A stretch of DNA of 64,000 nucleotides from Sphaerotilus hippei (GTDB lineage: Bacteria > Pseudomonadota > Gammaproteobacteria > Burkholderiales > Burkholderiaceae_C): the NCBI RefSeq assembly GCF_003201595.1, contig NZ_QJJS01000019.1, positions 1 through 64,000 of the forward strand, in the 5' to 3' direction. The translations under genes and the position numbers were made by a program. Shown here piece by piece: positions 27,548 through 35,949 of the stretch. The first letter of the stretch is position 1; every line of letters begins with the position of its first letter. Under the pieces are notes generated by a model. That model made no database searches, had not been told where the DNA came from, and saw only the letters and a list, made by a program, of their open reading frames with translations.

Positions 27548-28321
27548 TCACACCGCGCCACGCCGCATCGACCGCTCCCGCCGCACCGACTCTTCGCGCA
27601 GCGAGGTCAGCGTGCGGTCGACGAAGTCGATGTGCGCTTCGGCGGCGGCGCGGGCGGCCGCGCCCTGGCGGGCCTGCACGGCCAGCCAGACGGCGCGGTG
27701 CTGATCGAGCAGCTGGGCCGACACCGTGCCGGCGGCGAACAGGTTGGCGATGTTGTCGTGCACATGGGTGTGCAGCATGGTCAGCAGGTTGGCGCTGAGG
27801 TGGGTGAACAGGGCGTTGTGGGCCGCGTCGGCCAGCGCCTGGTGGAACTGCACGTCGATCCGTGACGTCAGGTCGAGCCCGCCCTGGCGGTGGGCCGCCT
27901 CCATCTGCGCGAACAGCGTGCCGATGCGCTCGATGTCGGCATCGGTCGCCCGCTCGGCGGCCATCTGCGCCACCGTGCCTTCGAGCATGCGCCGGAACTC
28001 CAGCACGTCACGGTGCAGTTCGGGGTGCTTGCCCAGCATCTCCTGCCAAGGATCGGCAAAACCGCTGTCGAGATGACCGGTCACGTAGGTGCCGCCACCC
28101 TGGCGGGACGTGACCAGGCCGCGCGCGGCCAGCTTCTGGATCGCCTCGCGCAGCGACGGCCGCGACACGCCCAGCTGCTCGGCCAGCTGACGCTCGGGCG
28201 GCAGGCGGTCACCGGGCTTGAACGAGCCCTCCAGCATCATGGTCTCGAGCTGCTGGACGATCTGGTCGGACAGGCGGGTGACGTTCAACGGCTTGATCGG
28301 GACGGCGGTCGATGCGGGCAT
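27548..28321 (-). CDS. GntR/FadR-family regulator of lactate use (LldR-like)
   Basis: This 257-residue regulator has an N-terminal winged helix (about residues 10-80; GDRLPPERQLAEQLGVSRPSLREAI and a GTYV wing) and a C-terminal FCD ligand domain with the metal histidines in DVQFHQALADAAHN and the later HTHVHDN. FadR/LldR-type proteins release DNA on binding an organic acid. The divergent neighbours encode a lactate dehydrogenase and a lactate permease, so lactate is the likely inducer. The ATG at 28321 is preferred to an in-frame TTG at 28330. Three operator-like palindromes lie upstream, one overlapping its own probable -10 region (TATCAT at 28375-28370, minus strand). Confidence 0.88.
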   Translation of the reverse strand: MPASTAVPIKPLNVTRLSDQIVQQLETMMLEGSFKPGDRLPPERQLAEQLGVSRPSLREAIQKLAARGLVTSRQGGGTYVTGHLDSGFADPWQEMLGKHPELHRDVLEFRRMLEGTVAQMAAERATDADIERIGTLFAQMEAAHRQGGLDLTSRIDVQFHQALADAAHNALFTHLSANLLTMLHTHVHDNIANLFAAGTVSAQLLDQHRAVWLAVQARQGAAARAAAEAHIDFVDRTLTSLREESVRRERSMRRGAV

Positions 28322-28356
28322 GGCAGGCAATCGGCTGCAGTCGCAGCCAAATCTGA

Positions 28357-28371
28357 ATTGGTCTTACCAAT
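28357..28371. promoter_or_regulatory. LldR-type operator 1
   Basis: ATTGGT-CTT-ACCAAT is a perfect 6+3+6 palindrome of the form TGGTnnnACCA bound by LldR/GntR-FadR regulators. It lies 36 bases before the regulator's start and overlaps TATCAT, its likely -10 box, which fits autoregulation. Confidence 0.75.
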
Positions 28372-28409
28372 GATAGCGCCTGTCCGGAAAATTCAGTTCA
28401 ACGCCATTT

Positions 28410-28424
28410 ATTGGTCAGACCAAT
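28410..28424. promoter_or_regulatory. LldR-type operator 2
   Basis: ATTGGT-CAG-ACCAAT is a perfect palindrome 53 bases from operator 1. Its flank, CGCCATTT before the palindrome, is shared exactly with operator 3. It lies about 80-95 bases upstream of the predicted dehydrogenase transcription start. Confidence 0.78.
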
Positions 28425-28468
28425 TTACTAAATTGACTGAACCAAGGGTTAACACCGATCTTTTTTCG

Positions 28469-28497
28469 TTGACCGGTCGGATGGGTCGCTCTAAATT
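28469..28497 (+). promoter_or_regulatory. Sigma70 promoter of the lactate dehydrogenase-permease operon
   Basis: TTGACC (28469-28474) and TAAATT (28492-28497) are separated by exactly 17 bases, placing the start site near 28504. Operator 3 lies just downstream and operator 2 upstream, as expected for repression by roadblock or looping. Confidence 0.6.
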
Positions 28498-28517
28498 TCC
28501 GCCCCATCGCGCCATTT

Positions 28518-28532
28518 ATTGGCCTGACCAAT
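28518..28532. promoter_or_regulatory. LldR-type operator 3
   Basis: ATTGGC-CTG-ACCAAT has one mismatch in the palindrome. Its flanks repeat those of operator 2 (CGCCATTT before, AATT after), and the two are 108 bases apart. It sits about 14-28 bases downstream of the predicted start site and 22 bases before the dehydrogenase ATG. Confidence 0.75.
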
Positions 28533-28553
28533 TAACCAAGACTGCGGCCGCCC

Positions 28554-31397
<2,844 letters not shown>

Positions 31398-31442: not shown

Positions 31443-33137
31443 ATGCCCACCTGGCTTCAAACCTACGACCCGCTCGGCAACCTGACACTGTCAGCGCTGG
31501 TCGCGGTCATCCCCGTCGTCTTCTTCTTCATCGCGCTGGCGGTGCTGCGCATGAAGGGCCACATCGCCGGCACGATCACCGTGGCGCTGGCGCTGGGCAT
31601 CGCCATCCTGTTCTACGGCATGCCGGTGGACATGGCGCTGGCCTCGGCCGGCTACGGCTTCGTCTACGGCCTGTGGCCGATCGCGTGGATCATCGTGTGC
31701 TCGGTGTTCCTCTACAAGGTCACGGTCAAGACCGGCCAGTTCGACATCATCCGCGCGTCGATCCTGTCGATCACCGATGACCAGCGCCTGCAGATGCTGC
31801 TGGTGGGCTTCGCCTTCGGCGCCTTCCTGGAAGGCGCGGCGGGCTTCGGCGCGCCGGTGGCCATCACCGCCGCGCTGCTGGTGGGCCTGGGTTTCAACCC
31901 GCTGTACGCGGCCGGCCTGTGCCTGATCGCCAACACCGCCCCGGTGGCCTTCGGCGCCATGGGCATCCCCATCCTGGTGGCGGGCAAGGTCACCGGCATC
32001 GACCCCTTCCTGATCGGCAAGATGGCCGGCCACCAGCTGCCGCTGCTGTCGCTGTTCGTGCCCTTCTGGCTGGTGTTCATGATGAACGGCCTCAAGGGCG
32101 TGAAGGACACCTGGCCGGCCGTGCTGGTCGCCGGTGGCAGCTTCGCCGTGACCCAGTTCTTCACCGCCAGCTACCTCGGCCCCGAACTGCCCGACATCAC
32201 CTCGGCGCTGGTCAGCCTGGTCTGCCTGACGCTGTTCCTGAAGGTCTGGCACCCGAAGGAGACCTTCCGCTTCGCCGCCGCCGGTGGCGTGGGCGCCTCG
32301 GCCGTGGCCGGTGCCGGCCTGAACGTGGCCGGCGGCAGCAAGCGCAAGCCCTCGGGCTACAGCGCCGGCCAGATCTTCAAGGCCTGGTCGCCGTTCGTGA
32401 TCCTGACCGTGCTGGTCACGATCTGGAGCCTCAAGCCCTTCAAGATGCTGTTCGACAAGGGCGGCGCGATGGCCGGCTGGGTCTTCAAGGTGGAAGTGCC
32501 GCACCTGCACAACCTGGTGATCAAGACCACCCCCATCGTCAGCGCCGACAAGGCCTACGAGGCGATCTACAAGCTCGACCTGATCTCCGCCACCGGCACG
32601 GCCATCCTGCTGGCCGCCGTGCTGTCGATGATCGTGCTGCGCATGAAGCCGCTGGACGGCCTGCGCACCTTCGGTGAAGTGGTGATGGAACTCAAGCGCC
32701 CGATCTACTCGATCGGCATGGTGCTGGCCTTCGCCTTCGTCGCCAACTACTCGGGCCTGTCGTCGACGCTGGCGCTGGTGCTGGCCGGCACGGGTGCGGC
32801 GTTCCCGTTCTTCTCGCCCTTCCTGGGCTGGCTGGGCGTGTTCCTGACCGGCTCGGACACCTCGGCCAACGCGCTGTTCGGCTCGCTGCAGGCGACCACC
32901 GCGCACCAGATCGGCGTCAGCGACACCCTGCTGGTGGCGGCCAACACCACCGGCGGCGTGACCGGCAAGATGATCTCGCCGCAATCGATCGCCGTGGCCT
33001 GCGCCGCGGTGGGCCTGGTGGGCAAGGAGTCGGACCTGTTCCGCTTCACGCTCAAGCACAGCCTGTTCTTCGCCACCATCGTGGGCGTGATCACCTACCT
33101 GCAGGCCTACTACCTGACAGGCATGATCCCGCACTGA
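31443..33137 (+). CDS. lctP: L-lactate permease (LctP family)
   Basis: This 564-residue inner-membrane protein has about a dozen or more hydrophobic segments and the LctP landmarks TYDPLGN at the start, [22 protein letters not shown] and, near the end, [15 protein letters not shown] and [15 protein letters not shown]. Members import lactate, and often glycolate, with protons. It follows the dehydrogenase by 45 bases in the same direction and should share its LldR-controlled promoter. A GC-rich hairpin follows the stop. The E. coli homologue is lldP. Confidence 0.94.
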
Positions 33138-33180: not shown

Positions 33181-33297
33181 TGCAGCGGCCAGAATGCCAA
33201 ATAACGGGTTTTCGACAATCACTTGACCGATTCCCGGTGACCCGATCTGCGTAGGATCGGCCGATTCTTTCCATCAGAGTCGGCAGAGGTGTACCGG

Positions 33298-35949
33298 ATG
33301 AGCGCCAAGCGCATCGTGACCAGTTTCCTGGCGTTCGGCACGGCCTGGATCCTGGCCTCGGACCGGGCGATCGACCTGATCACCCGGGACGCGGCGATCG
33401 TCTCGTCGATCCAGTCGGCCAAGGGCCTGGTCTTCGTGGGCCTGAGCGCCCTGCTCATCTACGTGCTGGTGCGCCATGCGGAGCGCTCCCAGGCGGCCCT
33501 CAAGGCCGAGACCGTGCGCCAGCGCGACCGGCTCGCCCACATCCTGGACGTCTCCCCGGCCGTCATCTACACGCTGAGCAGGCGCCAGGATGGCCAGCCC
33601 GGCTGGGACGTCGACTTCATCAGCCAGAACGTCGAGCAGGTCACCGGCCATGGACCGGCCCGCTGGTCCTCCCGGGCCGATTTCTGGCGTGAGCACATCC
33701 ACCCCGACGACCGGACCCCGGCCGAGCTCGCGCAGCAGCGGCTGATGCAGCAGGGCACGGTGCAGCACGAGTACCGCTTCCGGCACGCCGACGGCCGCTG
33801 GCGCTGGATCAACGACACCGTCACCCTGCTGCGCGACGCGGCCGGCCAGCCGGTCACGCTGACCGGCGCCTGGCTGGACGTGACCGACCGCAAGCAGGCC
33901 GAGCTGGCCACGCAGGCCTCCGAACACCGCTACCACGAGCTGTTCGACCTCAACCCGCTGCCGATGTGGGTGCACGACCTCGAGACCCGGCGCTTCGTCG
34001 CGGTGAACGCGGCCACGACCGCGCGGTATGGCTACAGCCACGCCGAGTTCAGCACGATGACGCTGGAGGACATCCAGCCCGAGGCGCCGGGCACGGCGCT
34101 GCCGCCCGGAGAGTCGATGCACCGGCGCCGGGACGGCACGAGCTTCCGGGCCGAGCTGAGCACCCGCACGCTGGACCGCGAGGGCCGTGCGGTGCAGCTG
34201 GTGCTGGTGCACGACCTCACCGACCGCCTCGACGCGCAGGAACATGCAAGGCTGATCGCCCAGGTGTTCGAGTCCAGCCAGGAAGGCATCTTCATCACCG
34301 ATGCCCAGACCCGCTTCCTGTCGGTCAACGGCTCCTTCACCCGCATCACCGGCTACAGCGACGCCGAGGTGCAGGGCCACACGCCGGCCCTGCTGAAGTC
34401 GGGCCGCCAGGACCGGCTGTTCTACGCCGAGATGTGGGCCCGCATCAAGGCCGAGGGCCGCTGGGAAGGCGAGATCTGGAACCGCCGCAAGAACGGCGAG
34501 ATCTTCCCCGAGTGGCTCACGATCAGCGCCATCCAGGACTCGCACGGCACACTGCAGCAGTACCTCGGCATCTTCACCGAGACCTCCAACCGCAAGGCGG
34601 CGGAGGAGCGCATCCTGCGCCTGTCGAACTACGACACGCTGACCGACCTGCCCAACCGCACCCTGCTGGCCGAGCGGGCCCGCGTGGTGCTGGCCGCCGC
34701 GCACCAGCAGGACCGCCCCGCCCTGCTGATGCACCTGAACGTGGACCATTTCGGGGGCGTCAACGAATCGCTCGGTCATGACGCCGGCGACCAGGTGCTG
34801 CGCGAACTGGCCCAGCGCCTGTCGCGCGCGCTCAAGCCGGAGGACATCCTCTGCCGCCTGGGCGGAGACGACTTCATCCTGCTGCTGCCCGGCAGCGCGG
34901 TGCACGACGTGGCGCCGATCGGCCTGCGGCTGATGGAAGCCGTCGCCCGGCCGATGACCGTGGCCGGCCAGGCGCTGCGCCTGAGCGCCAGCATCGGCGT
35001 GGCCGAGTATCCGGGCAACGGCAAGGACCTCGCCCAGCTGACCCAGGCGGCCGAGCTGGCCGTGCACCTGGCCAAGCGCGAGGGGCGCAACACGATGCGG
35101 CTGTTCTCGCTGCGCATGCAGCAGCAGGTGCAGGAGACGCTGGCCATCGCCCGGGACCTGCGCTGGGCGGTGGAGCGCCGGCAGCTCGTGCTGCACTACC
35201 AGCCGCAGGTCGATGCCCTGACCCACCGCCTGGTCGGCGTCGAGGCGCTGGTGCGCTGGCAGCACCCTCAGTGGGGCCTGGTGTCGCCGGCACGTTTCAT
35301 CCCGATCGCCGAGGACACCGGGCTGATCCAGGAGATCGGCACCTGGGTGCTGCACGAGGCGCTGCGCCAGAACGGCGCCTGGCAGGCCGCCGGCCTGCCC
35401 ATCGTGCCGATGGCGGTCAACCTGTCGGTGGCGCAGTTCCGCCATCCGCTGCTGCACGGCACGCTGGCCGAGGCGCTGCGCCACAGCGGCCAGCCCGCCC
35501 ACATGCTCGAGCTCGAGCTCACCGAGAGCGTGGCGATGGAAGATTCGGACTTCACCGTCACCACGATCGCCGGGCTCAAGCAGCTCGGCGTGTCGCTGTC
35601 GATCGACGATTTCGGCACCGGTTACTCCTCGCTGAGCTACCTGAAGCGCTTCAAGGTGGACAAGCTGAAGATCGACCAGTCCTTCGTGCGCGGCCTGAAC
35701 CGCGACCCGCAGGACGAGGCCATCGTCGACACCGTCATCAGCCTGGCGCGCAGCCTCGGGCTGCGCACCATCGCCGAGGGCGTGGAGACGAGCGACCAGC
35801 TGCAGTTCCTGCAGCAGCACGGCTGCGACGAGATCCAGGGTTACCTGTTCAGCCGTCCGGTGCCGGCCGACGCTTTCCCCGAACTGCTGCGCTCGCTCAG
35901 CGGAATCGACCGCGTGACCACCATGGCGCCCCATCCGGTGTCATGCTGA
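33298..35949 (+). CDS. PAS-PAS-PAS-GGDEF-EAL protein; probable c-di-GMP phosphodiesterase
   Basis: This 883-residue protein has two N-terminal membrane segments (about residues 8-25 and 45-60), three PAS-type domains (about 75-200, 205-310, 315-435), a GGDEF domain (about 445-600) and an EAL domain (about 620-870). The EAL catalytic motifs are intact: EALVRW at Glu649, [10 protein letters not shown] at Asp770 and KIDQSF. The GGDEF domain is degenerate: GGDDF at 522-526 and LNVDHF, where Asn481 replaces the usual first metal Asp. It should hydrolyse c-di-GMP, with the GGDEF domain perhaps sensing GTP. The ATG at 33298 is preferred to the GTG at 33289. Confidence 0.9.

Follow-up and report, generated by a model that had tools for sequence, protein, structure and literature searches.

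A probable three-operator variant of the lactate switch in Sphaerotilus hippei, with comparative evidence that operator spacing evolves in helical turns

Looping of DNA between paired operators was proposed earlier for LldR-type repressors, reportedly by Aguilera in 2008 for E. coli LldR, and was unseen in one large reporter assay. Do these repressors loop DNA? In the window, by which we mean the whole 64,000-nucleotide stretch of DNA that was analysed, a 232 bp intergenic stretch between a regulator gene and a dehydrogenase gene contains three palindromes, O1, O2 and O3. The features of the locus are as follows.

27548..28321, minus strand: GntR/FCD regulator, LldR/PdhR-like, 257 residues (ATG at 28321; TTG at 28330 possible)
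28357..28371, no strand: O1, ATTGGTCTTACCAAT, predicted regulator-proximal operator, exact match, PWM 24.6
28370..28375, minus strand: TATCAT, possible -10 box of the regulator gene, 2 bp overlap with O1
28410..28424, no strand: O2, ATTGGTCAGACCAAT, predicted middle operator, top PWM score, 27.9
28446..28456, no strand: GGGTTAACACC, imperfect palindrome between O2 and the promoter, possible activator site (post hoc pattern)
28469..28497, plus strand: sigma-70-type lactate-operon promoter TTGACC-17-TAAATT, TTGAC conserved, start inferred at about 28504
28518..28532, no strand: O3, ATTGGCCTGACCAAT, predicted operon-proximal operator, one imperfect half, PWM 20.9
28554..31397, plus strand: FAD-linked oxidase fused to an Fe-S domain, D-lactate dehydrogenase type (FAD_binding_4, FAD-oxidase_C, Fer4)
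31443..33137, plus strand: LctP/LldP-family lactate permease (TIGR00795, 733.3 bits; cut-off 341.15)

The preliminary description had placed three LldR-type operators at 28357, 28410 and 28518. All three palindromes lie exactly there, and the pattern TTGGT-N3-ACCAA is present at the target promoter. The window contains three matches to ATTGGTNNNACCAAT with at most two mismatches, compared with a mean of 0.23 in 100 shuffles, only one of which gave three or more. The exact core, ATTGGNNNNNCCAAT, occurs in the whole genome (4,429,270 bases in 46 contigs) only at O1, O2 and O3, and a control pattern does not occur at all. An independent matrix, built from 128 sites of relatives with the window sites excluded, gives the three scores listed above and only -3.1 for the next-best site in the 64 kb. 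The imperfect half of O3 is seen again in three related loci (L016, L017 and L022). As described earlier, O2 and O3 also share flanks (CGCCATTT...AATT). The left flank is common to the two operators within a species, as CGCCATTT in the window (28402-28424 and 28510-28532) and as TCAATT in L016 (around 2349 and 2458). Flanks that are alike within species and unlike between species would fit concerted evolution of O2 and O3.

The promoter reported between O2 and O3, and the 108 bp separating these sites, were likewise confirmed: TTGACC lies at 28469-28474 and TAAATT at 28492-28497, with a 17 bp spacer, and this is the sole sigma-70-like match in 28300-28570 (shuffles, 0.2). Its position is conserved. 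TTGAC starts 49 bp upstream of O3 in the window. Of 95 loci, 81 have it 37-50 bp ahead of their target-proximal operator (1.5 in shuffles), as do 61 of 75 non-redundant loci with the window included (1.1 in shuffles), counted without L018-L021, L038 and loci whose upstream stretch is too short. Relative to the inferred start, O3 would cover about +14 to +28 and O2 about -94 to -80. On the other side, O1 overlaps TATCAT, and the box recurs as TATCAT in L016 and L017 and as TATCGT in L022. Inspected by eye, TTGAGC precedes the box by 17 bp in L016, and the window has no good -35. The earlier suggestion that the third site autoregulates the regulator gene is borne out as to the overlap, less so as to the promoter itself, and autoregulation through O1 is plausible.

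The regulator belongs to the FadR subfamily (GntR-FCD), with PF00392 at 86.3 bits and PF07729 at 77.5 bits, both above cut-off. Its best NCBIfam matches are PdhR (240.7 bits, equivalog cut-off 330) and LldR (201.4 bits, cut-off 311), both too low, yet it keeps four D/H/H/H residues in its FCD domain, and for these reasons we call it LldR/PdhR-like. All four residues (D156, H160, H208 and H230), presumably metal ligands, are present in E. coli LldR and in GlcC, whereas V, Q and R replace the first three in E. coli PdhR. Among the 97 aligned rows that are not from E. coli, D/H/H is present in all and the last H in 96, the window being counted twice. The recognition helix is PdhR-like. The NCBIfam matches of the dehydrogenase (GlcD, YdiJ) are all under cut-off, and its domain architecture and the adjacent permease suggest D-lactate as its substrate. 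The permease lies just under the cut-off for the LldP equivalog (910.1 of 918 bits). Adjacent genes for lactate oxidation and permease, a mark of LldR, are present here and in many relatives, where the regulator adjoins lldE-, lldD-, lldP- or dld-like genes. Judged by gene families, the neighbourhood is one of ordinary LldR/PdhR-like lactate control. Elsewhere in the genome, the LUD domain of lldFG has no match; FMN_dh has four, of which two are almost complete, share 42% and 36% identity with E. coli LldD, and have no operators in their fetched flanks. For these reasons the three-site array seems to serve a single operon. The gene downstream of the permease (33289-35949) resembles, by eye, a PAS-GGDEF-EAL signalling protein.

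How these parts would work together can be outlined as a repressor switch for D-lactate use that is local, regulates itself and includes a loop between O2 and O3, a reading we hold to be more probable than not. When lactate is absent, FCD-GntR dimers would block the promoter by binding O3, just past the start, and O2, some 87 bp upstream of it, probably joined across the roughly 108 bp of DNA as a loop. A loop would be useful because, of the three sites, O3 is the weakest. The regulator's own promoter would be covered by a dimer on O1. Lactate, presumably D-lactate, in the FCD pocket would release the regulator, and the dehydrogenase and permease would then be made.

Several known systems resemble this arrangement in part: (i) E. 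coli LldR (lldPRD) has the same D/H/H/H residues and TTGG-type palindromes upstream of lldP, which in K-12 are ATTGGCCCTACCAAT and, 126 bp apart from it, the weaker ATTGGCAGTGCCACT with three mismatches. Its gene lies inside the operon with lldP and lldD, whereas the window regulator gene is divergent, and the window differs further in its D-lactate-dehydrogenase-type gene, its three sites and a regulator under the LldR equivalog cut-off. (ii) Pseudomonas LldR (lldP-lldD-dld; called PdhR in PMC8827060) shares the divergent FCD regulator, LldP and the FAD/Fe-S dehydrogenase (L107, L111), and the accessible text of PMC8827060 has the P. aeruginosa and P. fluorescens systems responding to both L- and D-lactate. 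In contrast to the window, its second operator is often sub-threshold, and a third site of the window type is absent among the loci examined. (iii) E. coli PdhR has a near-identical recognition helix (VSRPSLREAIQ) and a ATTGGTAAGACCAAT site upstream of pdhR, but lacks three of the four FCD residues and adjoins aceE, for pyruvate dehydrogenase. (iv) Atu1419 is an FCD repressor with operator pairs, one of them 109 bp apart; in the available portion of PMC7797058, its tetramer forms a 190 bp loop seen by EM, and the 109 bp pair lies at another promoter. Atu1419, however, belongs to the VanR subgroup, with a 10 bp palindrome and hydroxycinnamate genes.

The preliminary description held that the logic of E. 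coli LldR works here as well. Operators do flank a conserved promoter, but in the large reporter assay of PMC7804116, which cites Aguilera 2008, repression of lacUV5 by E. coli LldR was no stronger with a distal site, as far as the accessible text of that paper goes. Since E. coli LldR did not act as a looping repressor there, a shared logic can be taken as a possibility, not as a fact.

The three-site layout itself is rare. Of 396 loci examined, three (the window, L016 and L017) have a third site at a distance of 50-58 bp from the second; L022 has the outer sites and, between them, a remnant with three mismatches. These four loci form one clade, starred on the tree (from which seven rows are absent), in which this distance is 53-55 bp. 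A search of relatives, as suggested earlier, recovered the layout in this clade, with a degenerate middle site in L022, and nowhere among the remaining 392 loci. Counted with the matrix threshold, the first 102 loci had two sites in 65 cases, three in 15, one in 20 and none in 2. In Dechloromonas/Azonexus-type loci the third site is a different one: it lies only 18 bp from the second, where the regulator gene begins. This pair 18 bp apart, with a further site 113-126 bp away, is seen in L030-L033 and L041-L048 and in weaker form in L034, L049, L051 and L055. Four other species of the window's genus (L018-L021) have a relative of the regulator, 44-45% identical, next to an lldE-like gene, and a single operator close to where the regulator starts.

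Among the 14 nearest loci, the operon-proximal pair is 107-109 bp apart in 8, 127 bp apart in L025 and 96 bp apart in L037, and L027, L029, L038 and L039 have no second site nearby. The spacer of the window is 21-28% identical to those of L023, L024, L026 and L028, four of these eight, when ungapped, which is the shuffled level, and 28-39% identical with gaps. Spacing and intergenic length are uncorrelated in short-spacing loci (r = -0.06, n = 37); over all 77 loci r is 0.74. We rejected constant spacing with compensating changes around the -35 as evidence: the eight loci had been preselected for a spacing of 107-109 bp, so that a small standard deviation and a negative correlation of the parts are uninformative. 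No general compensation was found over 94 pairs, where r = -0.47 leans on one +6/-6 pair.

Both spacings in the window (53 bp for O1-O2, 108 bp for O2-O3) had been described as close to whole helical turns. At 10.5 bp per turn this is correct for 53 bp (5.05 turns), but 108 bp corresponds to 10.29 turns, about 100 degrees off. The case for phasing rests on the size of the larger jumps in spacing among relatives. A common absolute phase across all lineages was considered and rejected (permutation p of 0.29, 0.72 and 0.62 with clustering at 85%, 75% and 65%); the p value of 0.046 at 95% clustering reflects near relatives. In a spanning tree of near relatives drawn from the first data, 43 changes were of 0-2 bp, none of 3-4 bp and 25 larger, the larger ones mostly near one or two turns (p = 0.005). 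For the 34 strictly independent pairs from the same data, p was 0.15 with a period of 10.5 bp and 0.01 with one of 11 bp.

The enlarged data set comprised 252 two-site loci, reduced to 223 by duplicate removal and to 221 by a second list (L146-L150, L174 and L229, five of the seven already removed). Spacings were set by hand for weak second sites in L022, L034, L049, L051, L053, L054, L055 and L111, and also in L296. From the 221 loci (17 of them without the regulator control, 19 without the target control) we drew 100 independent sister pairs and averaged the counts over 20 tie-breaks:

Change (bp): 0-2; 3-5; 6-8; 9-13; 14-17; 18-24; more
Operator spacing (100 pairs): 63.8; 8.6; 0; 13.8; 2.1; 8.3; 3.4
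Control, site to regulator codon (91 pairs): 67.8; 3.6; 1.2; 4.6; 4.3; 1.6; 7.8
Control, target start to O3 (92 pairs): 42.0; 8.5; 6.4; 9.1; 4.0; 3.8; 18.2

Small changes (2 bp or less) are no rarer for the site-to-regulator-gene distance than for the operator spacing, and the evidence is therefore the size of the larger jumps, not constancy. In a scan of periods from 6 to 16 bp, 10.5 bp fits the spacing changes best, and both control distances lack this periodicity. Label permutation against the two controls, for changes of 6-40 bp at 10.5 bp, gives p of about 0.0009 overall, 0.002 for Halomonadaceae and about 0.03 for the remaining loci (0.05 at 11.0). The result depends in part on the range: the mean cosine of 0.49 drops to 0.25 when changes of 3-40 bp are set against a uniform null (p of about 0.003, one duplicate pair included). 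Although found post hoc, this turn-sized evolution of spacing favours looping.

The family labels Halomonadaceae and Pseudomonadaceae are partly inferred from named relatives. Matches were obtained in 211 of 250 genomes in the family of G1146 (133 of these loci taken), in 269 of 298 in the family of G945 (110 loci taken) and in 49 of 199 in the family of G318 (30 with loci and 17 of the rest taken). Two sites are present in 143 of the 151 Halomonadaceae loci examined. Spacings in the 122 non-redundant loci fall at 186-190 bp (47) and 195-201 bp (47), with two at 192-193 bp and the remaining 26 elsewhere, seven of these at 181-184 bp. A quick regulator-gene tree of 125 Halomonadaceae loci implies at least 13 switches between the two main classes. 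With a period of 10.5 bp, the spacing has a Rayleigh value of 0.51, compared with 0.06 for the target-to-O3 distance and 0.07 for intergenic length; the distance from the regulator-proximal site to the regulator codon is also significant (0.31), so clumping by descent contributes. For the Pseudomonadaceae-like family (G945) the prediction was fixed beforehand. Two sites were found in 59 of 110 loci, and informative pairs were few: the 25 pairs yielded two informative changes (12 and 13 bp), and one pair owed its value to a spurious call at 17 bp. Spacings in this family cluster at 133 and at 139-143 bp, about 7 bp apart. The test had little power and its result was not clean.

Other palindromes lie between O2 and the promoter. 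A GGG-AT-rich-CC (GGG-W-CC) palindrome, defined post hoc so as to include GGGTTAACACC of the window, occurs 60-76 bp upstream of O3 or the target-proximal site in 22 of 64 beta loci (shuffles, 0.45; L018-L021, L038 and L093 left out of the count) and in 1 of 30 gamma loci, and is possibly the site of another activator. In the window's own genome it shows no excess over a control pattern (52+41 versus 59+59), and the open frames at its eight best genomic matches form no clear regulon. In gamma loci, CYAAAGTMK, also a post hoc pattern, lies 68-93 bp upstream of O3 in 21 of 30, many of them near relatives (shuffles, 0.05; L081, L086, L088, L089, L091, L094-L100, L103, L104, L108, L110-L113, L115 and L116), and in none of the 64 beta loci. 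It resembles the ACTU sites of CrbR in the part of PMC5715377 available, and can also be likened to those of CrbR/ErdR. Gamma lactate operons that carry it may also be under an acetate two-component system.

Two readings without an O2-O3 loop have to be weighed against the switch proposed above. The operators could act independently, O3 as a roadblock or start-site blocker and O1 and O2 in control of the regulator gene, with the spacing of 107-109 bp kept by descent. Precedent exists for this: a single downstream site is enough for GdhR at lctP (PMC6957213, in its accessible part), and 71 of 100 double-site FadR-subfamily divergons that contain a TF gene are of the "separate" type in what is available of PMC4494728, which sorts double sites into those of constant and of increasing spacing and, in the same portion, has no helical test of them. 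The behaviour of E. coli LldR at lacUV5 points the same way, as do the 51 of 110 loci of the Pseudomonadaceae-like family with one site above threshold and the regulator-proximal site, whose distance from the regulator gene is kept within 2 bp in 67.8 of the 91 pairs. What independent operators would leave unexplained is that spacing changes come in turn-sized steps that are missing from both control distances, and we regard this reading as unlikely, though by no means negligible.

Helical steps would also follow if O2-bound regulator acted by a phased contact on RNA polymerase or on an intervening activator, as repressor or co-activator. Changes in the O2-to-promoter distance are indeed as periodic as those in O2-O3 (mean cosine 0.41-0.54), and the conserved palindromes of beta and gamma loci lie in this very interval, but their patterns were defined post hoc. 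Moreover, in Halomonadaceae we derive a position of O2 about 140-150 bp upstream of the -35, so such a contact would itself need bending there. We consider it quite improbable. A looped repressor switch is the reading we retain for the window.

The lactate switch of the window is of a known kind, in a genuine and well-formed variant with three operators; what is new is comparative evidence, found post hoc, that operator spacing evolves in helical turns. A search of the open-licence literature, mostly by title, found no comparative test of operator phasing for the lactate FCD family. Turn-sized evolution of spacing is an independent line of evidence for a phase-dependent interaction, and the sister-pair method can be applied to other double-operator families. 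That selection across Proteobacteria holds paired lactate operators in register, permitting drift by a few bases or jumps by whole turns, that FCD lactate regulators repress through short loops at their native promoters, the result for E. coli LldR at lacUV5 notwithstanding, and that O1 in the clade of the window ties the regulator promoter into the array is a broader view to which we give a little less than even weight. To lactate systems of this kind the window adds a compact three-site switch for D-lactate, apparently dedicated to one operon.
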